A program made the translations under genes and the position numbers. Below the pieces are notes generated by a model that did not search any database, had not been told where the DNA came from, and saw nothing but the letters and a program-made list of their open reading frames with translations. Below, one piece after another: positions 3,423 to 11,652 of a stretch of DNA of 11,652 bases. Positions within the stretch are counted from its first letter, which is position 1. Every line of letters begins with the position of its first letter. The DNA comes from Thermoplasmatota archaeon. GTDB lineage: Archaea > Thermoplasmatota > Thermoplasmata > RBG-16-68-12 > JAGMCJ01. The DNA lies in assembly GCA_022848825.1 (NCBI GenBank), contig JAJISH010000069.1, forward strand, positions 1 through 11,652, given 5' to 3'.

Positions 3423-3713
3423 CTACAGGGGGCGTTTGCACTTCTCGCAGACCAATCTCGTTTCCCGCCCGCACTCCTTACAAATGCCATGGAGGAACCT
3501 CTCCTTGACGGGCGCGTGATGACAGTCCGAGACCGCCAGAACCATGTGTCCGCAGTAGTCGCAGAGGTGCTCGATCGGCCTCGTCCTCTCAACCCTCTTT
3601 TCGTAGATCTTGAGTATGACCCAGATGATGGTGAGGATGAGCACGAGTATCCCAACGACCACAATCGGCGACCCCCATGCACCCAGGCCGTTGGAGAGAA
3701 CGAAGTCGGTCAC
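3423..3713 (-). CDS. Single-pass membrane protein with cytoplasmic Cys/His zinc domain
   Basis: A 96-residue protein. Residues 16-34 form one strongly hydrophobic helix followed by KIYEKR, so the inside-positive rule places the C-terminus in the cytoplasm. The C-terminal 46 residues carry C51-x2-C54, C64-x-H66 (with H65 and H75 as alternatives), C78-x2-C81 and C89-x2-C92. That makes eight potential ligands, enough for two zinc ions in a RING-like order, although the spacing between the histidine and the third pair differs from classical RING. Two zinc ribbons are the simpler alternative. The start is GTG 3713, with a TATA-like element about 25 bp upstream, so the message is probably leaderless. 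It is divergent from the UFM1-like operon across a 162-bp gap. A role as membrane adaptor or ligase for that system is only inference from position and zinc pattern. Confidence 0.8.
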   Translation of the reverse strand: MTDFVLSNGLGAWGSPIVVVGILVLILTIIWVILKIYEKRVERTRPIEHLCDYCGHMVLAVSDCHHAPVKERFLHGICKECGRETRLVCEKCKRPL

Positions 3714-3837: not shown

Positions 3838-3847
3838 GATTTATAGC
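3838..3847 (+). promoter_or_regulatory. TATA box of the UFM1-like operon
   Basis: GATTTATAGC is centred about 33 bp before the ATG of the ubiquitin-like gene. Initiation is expected near 3868-3870, giving a leader of only a few bases. No promoter-like element is obvious inside the following three genes, in keeping with one transcript. Confidence 0.7.
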
Positions 3848-3875: not shown

Positions 3876-4121
3876 ATGGCAATGACAACTCTTCGTTTTA
3901 TCTTCATCAGCGATCCCGAGAAGCCGGTTGTCACGTTGAAGGTCCCGAACGAGATGCTTTTTCAGGAAGCCCTTGTGATGGCGGCCAAGAAGCAGGACAA
4001 GGATGCAGGCGTGCTCTCGGCAACATACCCAGGTGGCACCCCTATAGCCGGCGGGACAGTGGAGGAGATCTCTGAAAAGAGCACGAACATACACGTTATT
4101 GACCCGTCCATCGTTGGTTGA
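3876..4121 (+). CDS. UFM1-like ubiquitin-like modifier
   Basis: An 81-residue beta-grasp protein, about the size of UFM1. Strand 1 (LRFIFISDP, residues 6-14) and strand 2 (VVTLKVP, 18-24) are followed by a helix with F..AL..AA (29-37), then TVEEISEKSTNIHVIDPSIVG (61-81), which lines up with the final ubiquitin-fold strand and tail. It resembles UFM1 more than ubiquitin: SDP sits at the same place in the first hairpin, F..(A/V)L..AA starts the helix, and the chain ends in a single-glycine Val-Gly like mature UFM1, not Gly-Gly as in ubiquitin, SAMP, MoaD or Urm1. UFM1 precursors have two more residues; here the stop codon follows the glycine directly, so no maturation cleavage is needed. The chosen start is ATG 3876 (3882 is possible). 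The E2 gene begins at or over its stop. Confidence 0.9.
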   Translation: MAMTTLRFIFISDPEKPVVTLKVPNEMLFQEALVMAAKKQDKDAGVLSATYPGGTPIAGGTVEEISEKSTNIHVIDPSIVG

Positions 4122-4596
4122 TTTCTTGAAGAGGGAAGACGACCTATTCTATTTCTTGCAGTGTGCAACGATATCATCTCCGCGGGACGCCGACTGGCTC
4201 CAGAGAGTGAGGGAGGAGAAGTACGCCATTTCGAGATTCTCGGAATATCTCAGATTCCTCGAGGGGGGTGAATGGTTCGAACTGAGGCCGACGAGCGACG
4301 GCGCGACCAGATGGGTGGGCAGCGTGAGGGACGTGGGCCTGGAATTCGAGATGGAGCTTGTATTGAAGGACGCCTATCCGACAATGCCTCCGGCCGTTAG
4401 GGTCCCCAAGCTCATGGACTACACGGACAGGAAGCTGGATGACGGGGTCCTCGGGCTCAGGATATGCGACATGCATATGGAGCAGAACTATTGGTGGGAC
4501 GAATACTGCGGCATTGCTCTTTATCTCAAGCGGGAGGTCAGCTACTGGGTCCAGAGCGTTCTTCACGATATGCGCAAAGAGGGGTGGCTGAAATAG
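4114..4596 (+). CDS. UFC1-like E2 conjugating enzyme
   Basis: About 160 residues (human UFC1 has 167). It is predicted to take the activated modifier from the neighbouring E1 as a cysteine thioester. Similarity to UFC1 runs along the chain: PRD.dWLQR(V/L)..E (23 onward), EWF.L....(D/E)G.TRW.G, EFE...L...YPT.PP...VP.L (about 78-98), then G.(R/K)IC with the proposed catalytic Cys118. The classical HPN motif of ubiquitin E2s is absent, as in UFC1, which has TAK there; here the segment reads YTDRK. After the cysteine comes a tryptophan-containing helix region (NYWWDEYCG). There is no good ATG; TTG 4114 (overlapping the modifier gene by 8 bp), 4126 or 4099 could be the start, with translational coupling likely. 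UFC1 similarity was judged by eye from memory. Confidence 0.88.
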   Translation: MVDFLKREDDLFYFLQCATISSPRDADWLQRVREEKYAISRFSEYLRFLEGGEWFELRPTSDGATRWVGSVRDVGLEFEMELVLKDAYPTMPPAVRVPKLMDYTDRKLDDGVLGLRICDMHMEQNYWWDEYCGIALYLKREVSYWVQSVLHDMRKEGWLK

Positions 4597-5369
4597 AGAG
4601 GTATTCCCGCTTCATGGAGTTCCCCTTTGCAGACTTCTCGGAGCTTAAGGAGAAGAGGATTCTCATCGTCGGCGTCGGCGGGCTCGGTGCGGTGAGCGCT
4701 GAGATACTCACCAGGTGCGGCGTCGGCAAGATGGTGCTGATGGACTACGACACGATCGAGGAGGCGAATCTTAACAGACTCATCTACGACACGTCACAAG
4801 TTGGGATGAAGAAGGTGGATGCGCTGAAGGCCCACTTGAGGAAGGCGAATCCGGAGGTAACTGGCGTAGGTCATCCGTTTGACATAACGGACGGAAAGGG
4901 CTACGATCTGTTCGTCGAGGAAGTCGGCAAGAGCGACGCCGTGCTGGGATGCGTCGACACGTTCCAGGTCAGGCTCTTCATGAATTCCCAGTGCGTCAAG
5001 TCGGGGAAGCCGCTGATCGACGGCGGGGCGTCGACCGACGGGGTTAACGGAAGCGTTCATGTCGTCATCCCGGGAAAAACACCTTGCTTCAGGTGCAACA
5101 GGCCGGTCCTTGGCGAAGCGCCCCCTGTGGAGATGCAGAGACCTGAAGGCACCAGGGACACCACCGGCGTATGCCACTTCACATCGCTTCCCACGACCAT
5201 GGGGATAATCTCTAGTCTCCAGTGTCAGGAGGTCCTCAAGCTTCTGTTGAACTTCGGACATACGGCGCCCTACCTAATGTATCACGGGCTTGAGGGCGTC
5301 CTGGAGAGGTATGACTGGGAGAGGGACCCGGACTGTCCAGTTTGCGGGGATATCACGGATGAAGAGTGA
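4584..5369 (+). CDS. UBA5-like E1 activating enzyme
   Basis: A 261-residue ThiF/MoeB/E1-fold enzyme expected to adenylate the modifier's C-terminal glycine and hold it as a thioester. Visible parts: ERYSRF at the N-terminus, the nucleotide loop GVGGLG (30-35), LTRCGVGK, DYDTIEEANLNRL, zinc ligands C168-x2-C171 and C251-x2-C254, and the catalytic-site motif GVC (C197) followed by SLPTTMG and LLNFG. The last group is the signature of UBA5, the UFM1 activator, and differs from MoeB, ThiF and Uba4. LTRCG(V/I)GK and IPG...CF.C also match UBA5. The protein stops just after the last CxxC, so it lacks the UBA5 C-terminal tail (about 404 residues in human) that binds UFC1. GTG 4584 keeps the RYSR motif and overlaps the E2 gene by 13 bp; ATG 4614, behind GAGAGGT, is the alternative. 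Confidence 0.93.
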   Translation: MAEIERYSRFMEFPFADFSELKEKRILIVGVGGLGAVSAEILTRCGVGKMVLMDYDTIEEANLNRLIYDTSQVGMKKVDALKAHLRKANPEVTGVGHPFDITDGKGYDLFVEEVGKSDAVLGCVDTFQVRLFMNSQCVKSGKPLIDGGASTDGVNGSVHVVIPGKTPCFRCNRPVLGEAPPVEMQRPEGTRDTTGVCHFTSLPTTMGIISSLQCQEVLKLLLNFGHTAPYLMYHGLEGVLERYDWERDPDCPVCGDITDEE

Positions 5370-6360
5370 CGTGACCATCCAGAGAGACGTCATAGCCATA
5401 GTCCTGAGCCACGCGCTCAAGGAGAGCAGGACGAGTGGAAGGGAAGTGATCGGATGGTTGCTGGGGTTCCTCTGGAACGGAGAGATATACGTCTGTGACG
5501 CCGTCCCCTGCACCCGATACAGAAGGCAGACGAAGTTCAGCGCGGAGGCGGATCCCCTCGAGGAAGCGGAGCTCGCCAGCAAGTATCCGAGAGACGTCGG
5601 AATCGTGGGACTGTATCACTCGCATCCGTTTTCCTTGGGAAGGAACTCCTCACTGTTCAGGGATCTCTTCGACGTGGGCGATATCTTCCACAGCCATACC
5701 GATGACATCACGATGAAGAACAGAGCGGGGAAACGGAAGAACTACCTCTCCCTCGTGACGAACGGAATCGACTACGCATGCTTTGTCATGCGGAATCGGG
5801 TGGAGAGGGCATCTCCCAGGATCGTGGACAGCATTTCATACTCCGACGCGATGGATGCCCACCAGACGGAAATCGACATCTCATTTGTGCGAGCGATGGA
5901 CAGGAAGGCCCTTCCCCGCTTGATGAGGGAGCTAGGTCGGGATCTCGCTGAACACATCGACTCGACGATCGATGTGAATTCCCTCAGGGTCAGGAACCTG
6001 CCGAAGAAGGGTGGGAGGTTGTCGTCTCCCGCTGTGGACTCTCGCGGCAAGGGAAACGTCTTTAGGGCGGCCGAGGAGGATGACAAGATAATGGTCGAGG
6101 TCCACATCAACCTCAGTCCCGTTGTGTACACTTCCAGTAAGAAGGAGTCCGAGATACTGGAAGCCCTGAGAAACGAGATGATCGACGACTCTGCCTATCT
6201 CATGTGGAAGCTTCTGTCCTCCCGGATGCTGGACAGGTTCAAAGAGAGCGTGGGGAGAATCGAGGTCGGGCTCGGGTCCTTCGAGATAGACGAGGACGGC
6301 CCTCTTCCTCTGAAGATCTACAGTGCGCCCGAGAGGAGCATCGCTAGGAAGAGATCATAG
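5359..6360 (+). CDS. JAB/MPN-domain protein, candidate deconjugase of the UFM1-like system
   Basis: A 333-residue protein with an N-terminal JAB/MPN domain (about 4-140) and a C-terminal region of about 190 residues that I do not recognise. JAB metalloproteases cut isopeptide bonds of ubiquitin-like modifiers using E, HxH and D around zinc. Here E29 (GREVIGWLLG) and H87-x-H89-P (YHSHPF) are present. The canonical rest is H-x7-S-x2-D, but after S97 the expected aspartate position (100) is phenylalanine and the nearest aspartate is D102. The metal site is therefore shifted by two residues or impaired. Start ATG 5359 overlaps the E1 stop by 11 bp with GGGGAT upstream, so the gene closes the operon. 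Since the modifier needs no maturation, removal from targets is the likely role. The eukaryotic UFM1 pathway uses the cysteine proteases UfSP1/2 instead. Confidence 0.88.
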   Translation: MKSDVTIQRDVIAIVLSHALKESRTSGREVIGWLLGFLWNGEIYVCDAVPCTRYRRQTKFSAEADPLEEAELASKYPRDVGIVGLYHSHPFSLGRNSSLFRDLFDVGDIFHSHTDDITMKNRAGKRKNYLSLVTNGIDYACFVMRNRVERASPRIVDSISYSDAMDAHQTEIDISFVRAMDRKALPRLMRELGRDLAEHIDSTIDVNSLRVRNLPKKGGRLSSPAVDSRGKGNVFRAAEEDDKIMVEVHINLSPVVYTSSKKESEILEALRNEMIDDSAYLMWKLLSSRMLDRFKESVGRIEVGLGSFEIDEDGPLPLKIYSAPERSIARKRS

Positions 6361-6705
6361 CTTCGCGCCGCACTTGCCGCAGAAGGCATCCTTGCTTGAG
6401 ATCCTCTCCCCACAATCCGGACAGTTCTGCTTCTGTTTGGCGCCGCACTTGGCGCAGAAGTCGTCCGCATCTTCGACGTCACCTCCGCACTCTGCGCACT
6501 CCAAGACGCCCGTGACGGGCTCGCCGACGCTCTTCTTGTAGCATTCCTCACACGTATACTCGGCCTTGTTCTCATACTCGATTAGAATGTAGGGCTCCTT
6601 CTCCTGTCCACAGACCATGCAGGTCTCATGTTGTCGAGGCTCAGAATACTCCCGGATCCTCAGCGGCTCTTCGAGAGGAGTCTCATCCTGCTCCTCCTCT
6701 TCCAT
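6355..6705 (-). CDS. Acidic protein with three zinc ribbons
   Basis: A 116-residue protein with six CxxC knuckles: 29-32 with 52-55, 70-73 with 84-87, and 95-98 with 109-112. The last two form a double zinc ribbon of the DZANK type (CxxCG...A.FC.KCGAK repeated). Residues 1-25 are very acidic and probably disordered. There is no membrane segment, so it is likely a cytoplasmic adaptor or nucleic-acid/protein binding module; the partner is unknown. ATG 6705 was chosen because a TATA-like element sits 22-32 bp upstream and the in-frame ATG at 6753 would fall before it. It converges with the JAB gene, the two stop codons overlapping by 6 bp, so read-through from one could oppose the other. A link to the UFM1-like system is possible but rests only on position. 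Confidence 0.85.
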   Translation of the reverse strand: MEEEEQDETPLEEPLRIREYSEPRQHETCMVCGQEKEPYILIEYENKAEYTCEECYKKSVGEPVTGVLECAECGGDVEDADDFCAKCGAKQKQNCPDCGERISSKDAFCGKCGAKL

Positions 6706-6715
6706 GCAGTAATGA

Positions 6716-6731
6716 TATTGCCATGGCAATA
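6716..6731. promoter_or_regulatory. 16-bp perfect palindrome, possible operator
   Basis: TATTGCCATGGCAATA is a perfect inverted repeat lying between the TATA-like element (6727-6737, minus strand, GATTATTATTG) and the start codon of the zinc-ribbon gene at 6705. A dimeric regulator bound here would block initiation. No regulator gene is visible nearby. Confidence 0.45.
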
Positions 6732-6737
6732 ATAATC
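6727..6737 (-). promoter_or_regulatory. TATA-like element for the zinc-ribbon gene
   Basis: GATTATTATTG on the minus strand is centred about 28 bp before ATG 6705, which suggests a leaderless or nearly leaderless message. It is weaker than the other TATA boxes in the window. Confidence 0.45.
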
Positions 6738-6757
6738 TTTCGGAGCAGTTCACAGAA

Positions 6758-6931: not shown

Positions 6932-6967
6932 CCCAATCCCACTTGACCAAGAAATCGGTTTTGTCGG

Positions 6968-6977
6968 TATATAAGCC
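6968..6977. promoter_or_regulatory. TATA box, readable on both strands
   Basis: On the minus strand this reads CTTATATACC and drives the 57-residue gene. The plus strand reads GGTATATAAG, also a good TATA match, which would start a transcript near 7000, well before the next gene's own TATA box. Confidence 0.65.
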
Positions 6978-7021
6978 GTCGGGCACTAGAATCAAAGTTG
7001 ATAATAGGACATCGCAGGAGC

Positions 7022-7039
7022 GGAGCCAGACTTGGCTCC
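7022..7039 (+). other. 7-bp hairpin in intergenic region
   Basis: GGAGCCA and TGGCTCC are perfect complements around a four-base loop. They lie in the 182-bp region between the divergent genes, where nothing codes convincingly. There is no following T-tract, so it is not an obvious terminator. It could be part of a leader or small RNA, or chance. Confidence 0.35.
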
Positions 7040-7086
7040 AGATGCACTCGGAACGCCCGTCTTACAAGAAGCCGTTCCACAAAGTT

Positions 7087-7094
7087 GATATAAG
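7087..7094 (+). promoter_or_regulatory. TATA box for the small acidic-tailed gene
   Basis: GATATAAG is centred about 24 bp before ATG 7114, the spacing expected for a leaderless archaeal transcript. An 11-bp direct repeat, CAAAGTTGATA, covers this element's upstream part (7080-7090) and recurs at 6993-7003. Confidence 0.65.
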
Positions 7095-7113
7095 CGAGCC
7101 AACAGAGATTATA

Positions 7114-7482
7114 ATGATGGTTGTTACACGTGACAAGCTGAAGGTCGCTATCGAGAACGCTCTCGAGGTCAGTCCTGACGAGGCCCTGGAGATGGCTGAC
7201 AGGGTGCTCAGGTACTTCGGCTACGAAAACGTCATTGTGGACAACGCAATCGATTCTGAGGACAGGAAGCTTTTCTACAGACTGCACGATGCCGCGCTTC
7301 TGAACTCGAACGTCGACTCAGAGATACTCTCCAGCGGGAAGTCGTGGAGGATTTTCTATTGGGAGATCGATGCCAGCGAAGTGGAGAGGAACCTGGAGAA
7401 GGAGAGGAAGACGAAGGAAGTCACGTACGAGGACCTTCCCGACGAAGCTTGGTGGTCAGTGAAGGCCGCGGAGGCCGAATAG
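7114..7482 (+). CDS. Small protein of unknown function, DUF6015-like (tentative)
   Basis: A 122-residue cytoplasmic protein without signal peptide or membrane helix. It begins VVTRDKLKVAIENAL with a helix rich in acidic residues (SPDEALEMADRVLRYFGYEN), then ID.EDRKLFYRLHDAALL, GKSWRIFYWEID, and a charged C-terminal helix (EVERNLEKERKTKEVTYEDL). The D..L..A...A..MS/D-E-A pattern followed by EDR.LFY...D..LL and WRI.YW reminds me of the DUF6015 family of Thermoplasmata; that match is from memory and uncertain. The start was set at ATG 7114 (7117 also possible) because a TATA box lies 24 bp upstream. The frame stays open back to 6943, but that part crosses the divergent promoter region and has no coding character. 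The 7483-7586 stretch after it shows no gene or clear terminator. Confidence 0.75.
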   Translation: MMVVTRDKLKVAIENALEVSPDEALEMADRVLRYFGYENVIVDNAIDSEDRKLFYRLHDAALLNSNVDSEILSSGKSWRIFYWEIDASEVERNLEKERKTKEVTYEDLPDEAWWSVKAAEAE

Positions 7483-7595: not shown

Positions 7596-7673
7596 GAAAC
7601 ATAGTTTACATGCGTTAGCCTCGCCATCGGCAACCCAGTATTGGGTACGATAGCATATCGGAGGAAAACGGAT

Positions 7674-10600
7674 ATGAAGACCCGAAACTCGAGCATGACA
7701 GTCACTGCCATAGTCTTGCTGCTGATGCTAGGCACTATGGTCGTGACGCCGAGCCAGAACTTGAGAGCGCAGGAAGACACAGTCGTCGTGTACGGCTGGG
7801 TTTTCGACGATATGAATGGAGATGGAGTCTGGGACGAGCCGCTCGAGTCGGGACTAGATGACGTACAGGTCGATCTGCATGATGTTTCCTCCATGGATCC
7901 CGTTTCGATGGACACCTTTGGTGGTGGCTACTTCGAGTTCGAGATATCTCAGCCGAGCTACTACTTGATACAGATAGAGTCGCCTGGGAAGCAGCTCGAA
8001 GAGGGCCGCGTGTTCTTCGGTAACGAAACGGTGATCGTCAGAGTCCACGACGAAAACCAGGACATGGGACACATCGGTCTGAAGTCGCGAGACATGAACG
8101 CCACGATTCGTGGTGCCGTGACTGACGGTATGGACGGACTGCCAATCAACGATGCAACCGTCACACTCCGCGACACGATGAACGACTTCGAGATATCACA
8201 GGTGACCGCTCCCATACACGAGTACGAGAACCGAAGAGATAAGTGGATGATATCTCCTGAGATTCCGATTCCGGATGTTCTCAATATCAGGCTAAGATTC
8301 AGGCACTGGTACAGAATGGAAAATGGACAGGATGGAGGAAACATACAGGTATCGACGGACAGTGGAGGAAGTTGGAATGTCCTGGACCCGCTTGGAGGTT
8401 ATCCCAACCCGAGCGTCGTCGAAGGTCAACCCGGTTTCACTGGAGTTGCCGGGTCAGACACTTTCTTCGAGTCCGTCTCAGCAGACCTCACCGATTATGC
8501 GGGTGAGACGATCCAGTTCGCTTTCAGATTCACAAGCGACACCACGACAATCGAGGAAGGTTGGTACATAGACCTCATCCTCATCGAGGCGGCGGGCGAG
8601 ACCATCTGGAGCGACGATGCGGAAATCGGGAATCAACGCGGATGGACCTTCCAGCCCGTGGGCGATCCCTGGCAGATCTCCGATCACAGGCACCACTCAA
8701 CGTCTCCGACCCACAGCTGGTACTGTGGTCTGGACATAGAGGGATGGTACTCGATGGAGACCTATGATGGAGAATACGAGATCGAGGTCTCCCATCTGGA
8801 CTATTCACCGACGTTCCAGACCGTGATAGTATCGCCAAACAACATCATCGGCAACCTCAAGCACACGAATGTGATCCCCGCGTCCGAGACTCTGTACCTG
8901 AACGACGTTCCGATAACCGCCCCGGACTACCAGATAGACTACCTCAACGGGACCGTGAGCTTCTTCCTGACGATAGATGTCACAGACATCATAACGGCCG
9001 ACTACGCATACACAGTGCCGGTCATGGATGAGACGCTCACGTTTGGCGCACTGGGCAACGAGATCGGAGGGACACTCTCCAACGGCAACATCGATATCGG
9101 CAGCTACGATCTCTACCTAGATGGGGCTTTGTGGCCCCCCGCGAACTACGTGCTAGACAATGTCACCGGTGTTGTGACCTACAATGTCACTATTGCTCCC
9201 GGATCCTTGATCTGGGCGAACTACACCCCTGGCGGCGGGACCCCAGTCGAGTATGAGGTTCTCACAAACACTTCCACACTCGCCTGGCCTCCAGTGTTTG
9301 GCACTCTGAGGATATGGATAAACATCCCTGAGGTTTTCTCGTTCGTGTACAACGCAAACGGAGAGGTATGGTTCACACAGCCGGTGTACGTCTTCGACGT
9401 CGTGAACGCCAGCTACGTGGCTCTACACACGGTCGTGGACGAGAAGGTCCAGCTCGCGGGAGGCACCAGGGCGGACCTTGAGCTGTTCAAATACACGATA
9501 AGCGGTCGCGCCAGAAGGGCCGACGGAGGCACCGGAATATCGGACAGACCCATTCACGCAGCACTCTATGACGCCAGCAATGGCAGGGTGATAACGAGCA
9601 CGGCCTCCACAGGACCCGAGTTCAGCATAGGCGCCTATCCTGGCGAGTTCTACGTTGTGACGAGGATAGACGGCTACAAGACCGTGACGCTACCCTCTGT
9701 CACCGTCATCGATTCAAGCGTCCCGATCTATGACCAGTACTTCGAAGTCTCTGAGGAAGAGCGCGTATACACGAACATCTCATTCGACGACAACGACTGG
9801 AACATCATCAACGTCGACACTGCCTGGAAACTCAACAGCGAGAGTTACTTGGGGGGCATGGACTGCTCCGAGCTCCACAACGTGCGAATGCAGATCGATA
9901 TCGTGCTCGGAAACGGGGACGGAACTCTCGATCTTCTGGAAATCGCAGATTTCATCACATGGATAGATGCGAAGGGGCCCAGATATGTGGTCACGGACCA
10001 GTTCTTCCTCATCGACGGCAACGAATTCGTGTCCGACCACGACAGCAACTCTGTGACCGTAACACTGTCGGCTGGACCTGTCGAGTCAACTGAGCCCTTC
10101 TGGGTTAGGACTTCCGCCCAGTACAACACGAGCGGGATCGAGTCGGGACTGGACGAATACAAGCTGACACAGTACGTGGAATACGACACAAGCATCATGG
10201 ACCAGACGGAGAAGAACCGCACATACAGCATCGATCTGCCCACGCAGGATGACGAGAGATACGAGATGGTGGAGAACGAGACGATATCAGGTATACACGT
10301 CGCAGGCTTCCTCACGATCAGGATCGACCCGCCGCAAGGTTCGGGCGGACCTGTCTCGGTCGATATGACGGTTCGCCCCTCCGTGGGTGGAGTCGCCAAG
10401 ATCGAGGTGATCGACCCGCTGGACCGCGTCTCCATCCCGCAGGATATCACATATGAGGACTACAATGCGACGGTTCCCGCGGAACTGAACATAACCTTCT
10501 CCGCAGCGACCTCGATAGACAACAGCACTTCAACAAAACTCGTCTCGCCGCACGCGAACTTCACGTGGATATTCGACACCTCCAATCCAGGTCAGAGCAC

Positions 10601-11652
10601 GAGGTACGGAATAGAGGCCATCTACAACTACACGACGGGTAACACGTATACGGTGAACCTGACCATATCCGAGTCGGGCCTGGACCCGGGTGGCGACATA
10701 AGCTACCGGGAAGCAACGATATTCGTTGATGAGCTCGACCCGAGTGCCGTGGTTTCAGTCAACATCACCTCTATCGATTGGGCCATGGACAATGCCAATG
10801 GTCAGACGATTGACGTCAACGAAAGCATGGCGATCAAGTTCGACAGTGTGGAATCGACAGACCTCATGTATGGGTCAACCGAAGGGAAGATCAAGGACTG
10901 GAAGTGGGACCTTGAGGGCGATGGAATCTGGGACAGGTTCGTCTCAAGCTTCACGTACTCCTACGGCAGTCCTGGCAACTACACGGTGAACCTCACCGTG
11001 GCCGATTCTGTCGGCCACTGGAGCTCTAACGCCACGGTCGACTTCATCGTGCACGATATCTCACCCCCATCGGCACGCATCATCCTACTGAACGACACTT
11101 ACATTCCCACGACTTCCGCTATCGAGAACAAAACGTACTACTTCAATGCCAGCGAGTCAGCGGACAACCACGATGACCTCGACAACCTCACGTTCGACTG
11201 GGACTTCGGAGACGGAACTGTAATCGCCGCGCAGCTGGGGAACTACAACGTTTCGCACGTCTTCACGATAATCGACACATACAACGTCACTGTCAATGCA
11301 ACGGACAGGGCAGGGAACGCCGGGAACAGCACCCTGACCGTCAAGGTCATCGCAGACGCGTCCTCGAGACCCGATCTGGAGGTCCTGTCAGCGACGTTCT
11401 ACAGTGAACCCAAGAGCGTCGAGGAAGGTCAGAGCATTAAGCTGTCCGTCAACGTCACCAACAAGCAGAACCATGCGACCGCTGACAGCATCAGCGTGGA
11501 CTTCTATCTGAAAGAAGGCGACAAGGAGACGAAGATCGGTGGCACAGTCAGATTCTACAATGAGTCTGGTCTGATTCCGACTGGTCAGGTCAAGATAGAA
11601 GCGGGAGAGACGATCCGGGCAGAGATATCCTTGACTCCCGAGGTCGTCGGAA
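7674..11652 (+). CDS. Giant secreted multidomain surface protein (3' end outside window)
   Basis: At least 1326 residues, open to the window edge. Residues 1-32 form a Sec signal peptide (basic start, hydrophobic core, likely cut at LRA|QE). Domains in order: SdrD B/Cna-B-like with D.NGDG..DE..E.GL (37-130); carboxypeptidase-regulatory-like fold (from 143); a jelly-roll of the type seen with M6 immune-inhibitor-A peptidases (about 190-352, STDSGGSW, then W......HHS); two related beta units with LYL(N/D)(D/G)...Y..D...G.V (about 405-510); another Cna-B-like region (from about 610); PKD-like domains (about 945-1005, 1053-1110 with WKWDLEGDG, and 1153-1225 with FDWDFGDGT); and the start of a CARDB-like domain (from 1233). 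Many N-x-S/T sequons suggest N-glycosylation. No catalytic motif is visible, so it is probably a cell-surface adhesion or S-layer-associated protein. The membrane anchor would lie beyond the window. Confidence 0.88.
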   Translation, partial: MKTRNSSMTVTAIVLLLMLGTMVVTPSQNLRAQEDTVVVYGWVFDDMNGDGVWDEPLESGLDDVQVDLHDVSSMDPVSMDTFGGGYFEFEISQPSYYLIQIESPGKQLEEGRVFFGNETVIVRVHDENQDMGHIGLKSRDMNATIRGAVTDGMDGLPINDATVTLRDTMNDFEISQVTAPIHEYENRRDKWMISPEIPIPDVLNIRLRFRHWYRMENGQDGGNIQVSTDSGGSWNVLDPLGGYPNPSVVEGQPGFTGVAGSDTFFESVSADLTDYAGETIQFAFRFTSDTTTIEEGWYIDLILIEAAGETIWSDDAEIGNQRGWTFQPVGDPWQISDHRHHSTSPTHSWYCGLDIEGWYSMETYDGEYEIEVSHLDYSPTFQTVIVSPNNIIGNLKHTNVIPASETLYLNDVPITAPDYQIDYLNGTVSFFLTIDVTDIITADYAYTVPVMDETLTFGALGNEIGGTLSNGNIDIGSYDLYLDGALWPPANYVLDNVTGVVTYNVTIAPGSLIWANYTPGGGTPVEYEVLTNTSTLAWPPVFGTLRIWINIPEVFSFVYNANGEVWFTQPVYVFDVVNASYVALHTVVDEKVQLAGGTRADLELFKYTISGRARRADGGTGISDRPIHAALYDASNGRVITSTASTGPEFSIGAYPGEFYVVTRIDGYKTVTLPSVTVIDSSVPIYDQYFEVSEEERVYTNISFDDNDWNIINVDTAWKLNSESYLGGMDCSELHNVRMQIDIVLGNGDGTLDLLEIADFITWIDAKGPRYVVTDQFFLIDGNEFVSDHDSNSVTVTLSAGPVESTEPFWVRTSAQYNTSGIESGLDEYKLTQYVEYDTSIMDQTEKNRTYSIDLPTQDDERYEMVENETISGIHVAGFLTIRIDPPQGSGGPVSVDMTVRPSVGGVAKIEVIDPLDRVSIPQDITYEDYNATVPAELNITFSAATSIDNSTSTKLVSPHANFTWIFDTSNPGQSTRYGIEAIYNYTTGNTYTVNLTISESGLDPGGDISYREATIFVDELDPSAVVSVNITSIDWAMDNANGQTIDVNESMAIKFDSVESTDLMYGSTEGKIKDWKWDLEGDGIWDRFVSSFTYSYGSPGNYTVNLTVADSVGHWSSNATVDFIVHDISPPSARIILLNDTYIPTTSAIENKTYYFNASESADNHDDLDNLTFDWDFGDGTVIAAQLGNYNVSHVFTIIDTYNVTVNATDRAGNAGNSTLTVKVIADASSRPDLEVLSATFYSEPKSVEEGQSIKLSVNVTNKQNHATADSISVDFYLKEGDKETKIGGTVRFYNESGLIPTGQVKIEAGETIRAEISLTPEVVG

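Follow-up and report, generated by a model that had tools for sequence, protein, structure and literature searches.

Several modifier systems of the ubiquitin-like (Ubl) kind are known in prokaryotes. The Caldiarchaeum ubiquitin operon is made up of genes for ubiquitin, an activating enzyme (E1), a conjugating enzyme (E2), a RING protein, and an Rpn11 protease. The bacterial Ubl operons (BilABCD and Bub) have a gene complement of Ubl, E1, E2, and JAB, and the SAMP, Urm1, and MoaD-ThiS systems use GlyGly carriers and, to our knowledge, have no E2. In eukaryotes, the genes for the modifier UFM1, its E1 (UBA5), and its E2 (UFC1) lie apart, and a C-terminal extension of UBA5 binds both UFM1 and UFC1. 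The relevant passages of Grau-Bove et al. describe UFSP, of peptidase family C78, as the protease that eukaryotes use in this pathway, and SUMO and Ufm1 as eukaryote-specific and absent from Archaea and Bacteria (PMC4327156). Here, we analyzed a stretch of 11,652 nucleotides (the window) from a Thermoplasmatota archaeon (assembly GCA_022848825.1, contig JAJISH010000069.1), in which four tightly packed genes encode a modifier, an E2, an E1, and a JAB/JAMM-type metalloprotease. We read this unit as an archaeal operon that encodes a UFM1-type modifier system; its E1 and E2 are homologous to human UBA5 and UFC1, and the system is predicted to conjugate the modifier to proteins and to detach it by its own metalloprotease (probability of approximately 0.86).

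UFM1 and UFC1 are also assigned to eukaryotes only in the cited section of a 2023 EMBO J paper, which proposes that UFL1 and DDRGK1 were present in Asgard archaea before UFM1 evolved (PMC10183829). Homologues of the UBA5 catalytic domain are known in Archaea and Bacteria, according to the corresponding section of a 2024 review (PMC11354881). An "Asgard archaeal UFM1" serves as the outgroup for Vps22/36 in a 2022 paper on Asgard archaea (PMC9192718); in the excerpt concerned, the name probably means a UFM1-ligase protein. The words UFM1, UFC1, and UBA5 do not occur in PMC1779556 or PMC5654768. In a literature search of titles and abstract openings, with preprints and most subscription journals outside its coverage, no such archaeal operon was found to be described, and an earlier description is possible.

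The original prediction, made from the DNA letters alone, had placed the four packed genes in the order modifier, E2, E1, and JAB, and every placement was confirmed (Table 1). The genes form a compact unit on the + strand within 3876-6360, and adjacent genes overlap or are separated by a gap of a few bases. The start codons of the E2 (TTG, 4126) and the E1 (GTG, 4584) were chosen by where homologues begin. The prediction had also named three independent pointers to UFM1, namely a modifier with a single Gly in a Val-Gly end, an E2 that lacks HPN and follows UFC1, and an E1 with GVC..SLPTTMG and LLNFG as in UBA5. Each of them held up under testing, and for each of the three proteins, the eukaryotic counterpart was the best match among solved structures.

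The E2 belongs to the UFC1 family. It matched the Pfam UFC1 model (PF08694) with 39.8 bits against a cut-off of 25, and the model scored above its cut-off in 19/19 carrier genomes, that is, genomes with such an E2. All 19 E2 homologues matched UFC1 at E ≤ 0.01 in Pfam. The prediction had allowed that the E2 might fall with ubiquitin-type or bacterial families; no ubiquitin-type E2 appeared among the PDB sequences at E ≤ 1, and weaker Pfam matches to Prok-E2_B (8/19) and UQ_con (6/19) exist. Of the 27 PDB matches at this threshold, 26 were UFC1 (E from 8e-9 to 6e-8), one of them a UBA5-UFC1 fusion, and the last was an unrelated protein (E of 0.95). The Cys in RICDMH (RIC) corresponds in the alignment to the catalytic Cys116 of human UFC1 (KIC) and is invariant (C115; 19/19). 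A second Cys, close to the N-terminus (C14; 19/19), and W142 are likewise invariant. The HPN triad is not present anywhere in the E2 sequence. At the TAK motif of UFC1, the E2 has TDRK, with the K 11 rather than 8 residues before the Cys, and the alignment is gapped there. The structure model of the E2 was poor (predicted local distance difference test, pLDDT, of 53) and was used solely to back the sequence evidence; all 29 Foldseek matches at E ≤ 0.001 were UFC1.

The E1 groups with UBA5, although it lacks the C-terminal segment of the latter. Its best PDB match was human UBA5 (177 bits), followed by MoeB (98 bits). The family profile favored UBA5 over MoeB as well (224 vs 135 bits), and BLASTP with the E1 of the window gave 168 bits for human UBA5 against 110 for the best ThiF-family paralogue. 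The GVC..SLPTTMG and LLNFG motifs aligned with human UBA5. The Cys of GVCHFTSLPTTMG, which lies in the adenylation domain as in UBA5, and both CxxC pairs were invariant in the 17 operon E1s aligned (17/19 in alignment A3; one cut by a contig end and one with an N stretch were left out). Of the two sides on which the prediction had imagined the E1, that of MoeB/ThiF was not the one observed: a 100/97 branch in the tree, built from 40 E1-like proteins, separated human UBA5 and the 17 operon E1s from E. coli MoeB and ThiF, fungal Uba4, and 19 ThiF-family paralogues from related genomes, selected for having a locus and a good length. The 17 operon E1s were united at 92/92 with human UBA5 outside. 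UBA5 was represented by the human sequence alone, and the tree program warned of the length of its branch and of the risk that a join of this kind is spurious. The E1s of families f1-f4, that of the window included, stop just past the last CxxC and have no UFM1-/UFC1-binding segment. The E1 tails of f7, f20, and f27 were considered as a UBA5-like UFC1-binding motif and rejected, because they scored no better than shuffles (at best 498/5000 as high).

The modifier ends in ...IDPSIVG, with no residue beyond the Gly. Among 97 modifiers, 86 matched an end pattern requiring Gly, 83 of these with VG; 57 of the 86 end at the Gly and 29 carry a tail of 1-29 residues, and the 11 modifiers outside the pattern were mostly cut or scrambled metagenome proteins. 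The modifier of one locus (L034) ends in VGSC, as does human UFM1. The family profile aligned end to end with human UFM1 (E of 3e-6), and 0/300 shuffles scored as high. A PDB sequence search with the profile of 18 modifiers gave no match, and one with the single modifier of the window gave chance-like matches only. The predicted fold had a pLDDT of 91.4, and the top 11 matches were all UFM1 in two structure comparisons. On these models, the protein would have the UFM1 fold rather than that of another Ubl.

Homology and invariant catalytic-type residues were accompanied by conserved gene order, co-occurrence, and purifying selection. UFC1 was present in 17/61 relatives, 14/37 genomes of the order, and 6/389 genomes drawn across the phylum, which gave 19 carriers from seven families in total. 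In the 19 carrier regions, window included, the modifier gene lay directly 5' of the E2 gene in 18, the E1 gene was next in 19, and a JAB gene was found in 17; in L036, the contig end falls inside the E1 gene and no JAB gene is visible. The modifier profile, applied genome-wide, detected a modifier in 18/19 E2 carriers and in 0/14 non-carriers. The identity to the protein of the window across families was 70-99% for the modifier, 58-99% for the E2, 54-97% for the E1, and 29-87% for the JAB protein. By this measure, the modifier varies least among the four proteins, in line with its need to fit several partners. All four genes are under purifying selection: the ratios of nonsynonymous to synonymous substitution (dN/dS) within the genus (window vs L032 and L033) were 0.05 and 0.15 for the modifier, 0.10 and 0.11 for the E2, 0.15 and 0.25 for the E1, and 0.17 and 0.12 for the JAB protein. 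The gene order is not due to chance, because it recurs, with the exceptions given, across the 19 carrier regions and dN/dS within the genus is 0.05-0.25. Carriage of the unit by viruses or plasmids was rejected, since one scan of viral contigs yielded no E2 relative and plasmids gave no E2 match. A different archaeal E1-E2 pair was observed on a Salinigranum marinum plasmid (L121; NZ_CP100464.1), where an E2/UBC family gene lies beside a ThiF-family E1 gene.

The JAB protein matched Pfam JAB with 27.2 bits (cut-off of 22.5), and its JAMM-type residues E29, H87, H89, S112, and D115 were invariant in 14/14 JABs (alignment A4; 14/17, three cut by contig ends being left out). Its nearest PDB entries, by weak profile match, were the Caldiarchaeum Rpn11 homologue (E of 0.0017) and CSN5 (E of 0.0046). 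The locus thus resembles the Caldiarchaeum operon in being archaeal and in combining a modifier, an E1, an E2, and a JAMM protease, and differs from it in that the first three are of UFM1, UBA5, and UFC1 type rather than ubiquitin type; a RING family was not among the Pfam matches of the unit and the neighbors scanned. The JAB gene is no mark of the UFM1 pathway; its protease in eukaryotes is UFSP. With a JAMM protease gene in the unit where eukaryotes use UFSP, genes joined in one operon, mostly tailless modifiers with nothing to trim, and short f1-f4 E1s, the unit differs from the complete eukaryotic UFMylation pathway.

From homology, gene order, and invariant residues, we infer that the unit functions as the UFM1 core does. 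In the predicted first step, the C-terminal Gly of the modifier would be adenylated by the E1 and linked as a thioester to the Cys of GVCHFTSLPTTMG, from where the modifier would be handed to the invariant Cys of the UFC1-type E2. Amino groups of target proteins would then receive it from the E2, acting either by itself or with the aid of a helper; the zinc-ribbon protein encoded next to the unit is a guess for this role. Removal of the modifier would fall to the JAMM protease, which would also trim the precursor in cases where the Gly is followed by a tail.

Several observations weigh against this assignment. The modifier of the window did not by itself match Pfam Ufm1 (PF03671), the family cut-off not being reached, and Ufm1 was listed for just 9 of 41 modifier relatives chosen for diversity from the 97 (alignment A5; best E of 0.0011). 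In one full-length relative (P0175), a Cys replaces the end Gly. The His-to-Ser spacing of the JAMM motif varies among the JABs, and here it exceeds the usual JAMM spacing. At L034 (genome G050), the modifier, E2, and E1 genes are present and no JAB gene was found beside the E1 gene; this locus is partly N, and its family mate L037 is unlike it at the JAB position. Genome G037 (L038) has the E2, E1, JAB, and zinc-ribbon genes, yet no detectable modifier; loss, an assembly gap, and a very divergent modifier are candidate explanations. The UFSP family (PF07910) and UFL1 (PF09743) were each found in 0/19 carriers, but no control genome gave a match to either, so their absence is not proved. Finally, uL24 is a known human UFM1 substrate, as stated in the section of PMC11354881 concerned, and it was rejected as an archaeal substrate when its C-termini in 16 carriers and 14 non-carriers revealed no carrier-specific tail.

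The original prediction had raised contamination of the assembly and recent transfer from a eukaryote as other sources of the genes, and both were judged unlikely. Contamination was ruled out by the archaeal RNA polymerase genes on the contig, by near-identical loci in other Thermoplasmata metagenome-assembled genomes (89-99% E2 identity in named records), and by three relatives on records titled chromosome. In a tree of 30 archaeal E2s and 11 eukaryotic UFC1s (from the best 120 of 1589 listed, and animal as far as named), the two groups split at 100/100 with a long branch between them, and this complete separation makes a recent transfer unlikely. We also consider unlikely an ancient transfer, in which the genes for UFM1, UFC1, and UBA5 passed from an early eukaryote to an ancestor of Thermoplasmata and were combined there with a local JAB gene. 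The patchy distribution in the order and in the phylum draw would fit such an event, as would the finding that the five organism-named E2 relatives among the 90 from a protein search (Thermoplasmata, Methanomassiliicoccales, or 'Methanobacteriota') are all from the same archaeal group, and our trees took in one UBA5 and, as far as named, animal UFC1s alone. However, three genes that are scattered in eukaryotes would have to be moved and set in order. The archaeal E2s lie on one side of the 100/100 split, human UBA5 branches outside the group of operon E1s with 92/92 support (subject to the long-branch warning), and the archaeal set is diverse, with seven families and the same neighbors in f1, f2, and f4.

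A sulfur-carrier system of the SAMP/Urm1 kind, in which sulfur carriage is the main task of the modifier and the E1 activates sulfur in the manner of MoeB, is very improbable. The E1 superfamily does include MoeB, ThiF, UbaA, and Uba4; the best NCBIfam matches of the E1 were to MoeB models and did not reach the cut-offs of these (128 bits against 266), and the JAB protein had a weak desampylase match (26.9 bits, cut-off of 130). However, the unit includes an E2 with an invariant Cys, the E1 falls on the UBA5 side of the tree, and two or more ThiF-family genes were found in each of the 16 genomes searched (16/16). Sulfur carriers end in GlyGly, and the modifier here ends in ValGly. That the unit is a Ubl system for defense against phages, akin to bacterial Bil and Bub, and resembles UFM1 by chance is hardly credible, given that, for all the shared gene complement, the structural match to those systems was weaker than 10 of the 11 UFM1 rows and PADLOC gave no match for the E2 or the modifier.

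The window belongs to a genome of 1.96 Mb in 453 contigs (89% complete; the locus is on contig C420 in our numbering). Its start holds two RNA polymerase Rpb1-type genes (archaeal A' and A'' by our naming) and a gene for a NusA-like KH protein. A TATA-like stretch lies approximately 30 bases 5' of the start codon of the modifier gene, as in archaeal promoters. The small protein encoded 5' of the unit apparently has one membrane helix and CxxC zinc fingers. Downstream, the zinc-ribbon gene converges on the JAB gene in 6/7 families, and relatives of the DUF6015 protein and of the large protein that follows it adjoin the unit in f2 and f4.

Table 1. Positions of the genes of the unit and of adjacent features in the window.
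Feature	Positions	Strand	Start codon	Basis
UFM1-like modifier, 81 aa, end ...DPSIVG	3876..4121	+	ATG	Family profile, predicted fold
UFC1-type E2, Cys in RICDMH	4126..4596	+	TTG (likely)	Pfam PF08694, PDB matches
UBA5-type E1, Cys in GVCHFTSLPTTMG, CxxC pairs CFRC and CPVC	4584..5369	+	GTG (likely)	PDB, tree
JAB/JAMM-type metalloprotease, long C-terminal part without Pfam match	5359..6360	+	ATG	Pfam JAB
Double zinc-ribbon protein, convergent neighbor, N-terminal CxxC..CxxC finger	6355..6753	-		PF12773
Small protein 5' of the unit, no Pfam family above its cut-off	3423-3713	-		
TATA-like stretch	3840-3846	+		
DUF6015 protein	6943-7482	+		
Large protein, runs past window end	7641-11652	+		

The zinc-ribbon protein is longer in f20 (L037:4519-5661) and f7 (L038:4911-6245), where the extra N-terminal part reads like a membrane helix plus helices. 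A role as an adaptor or ligase (E3) is speculative. As a strict partner of the unit the protein was rejected, because near full-length relatives also occur in 2/14 non-carriers and some zinc-ribbon match was found in 28/30 genomes; what links it to the unit is an association only. The two non-carriers, both of f4 (G007 and G011; loci L119 and L120), have the zinc-ribbon gene, a DUF6015-like gene, a further gene, and a gene for a large secreted-looking protein in carrier order without the UFM1 unit. Because the same site exists with and without the unit, loss in that genus is suggested; gain elsewhere is the alternative.

As judged from these comparisons, this way of tagging proteins likely predates eukaryotes. 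The prokaryotic modifier-E2-E1 unit contrasts with the surveys whose cited passages call Ufm1 (PMC4327156) or UFM1 and UFC1 (PMC10183829) eukaryote-only, and it turns the origin of the pathway into a testable question. On balance, we favor an archaeal origin, in which UFM1 tagging was not a eukaryotic invention: the modifier, E1, and E2 would have emerged jointly in archaea, encoded in a single operon whose JAMM protease was the first remover. Eukaryotes would have received the three by inheritance, with UFSP, the UFL1 complex, and the ribosome as a target being later additions. The JAMM gene suggests that a different class of protease is able to perform the removal. With four genes in about 2.5 kb, the unit offers a minimal system for working out the role of UFM1 conjugation in the absence of an endoplasmic reticulum. 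If the archaeal origin is true, the Thermoplasmata operons would be living relatives of the ancestral system.

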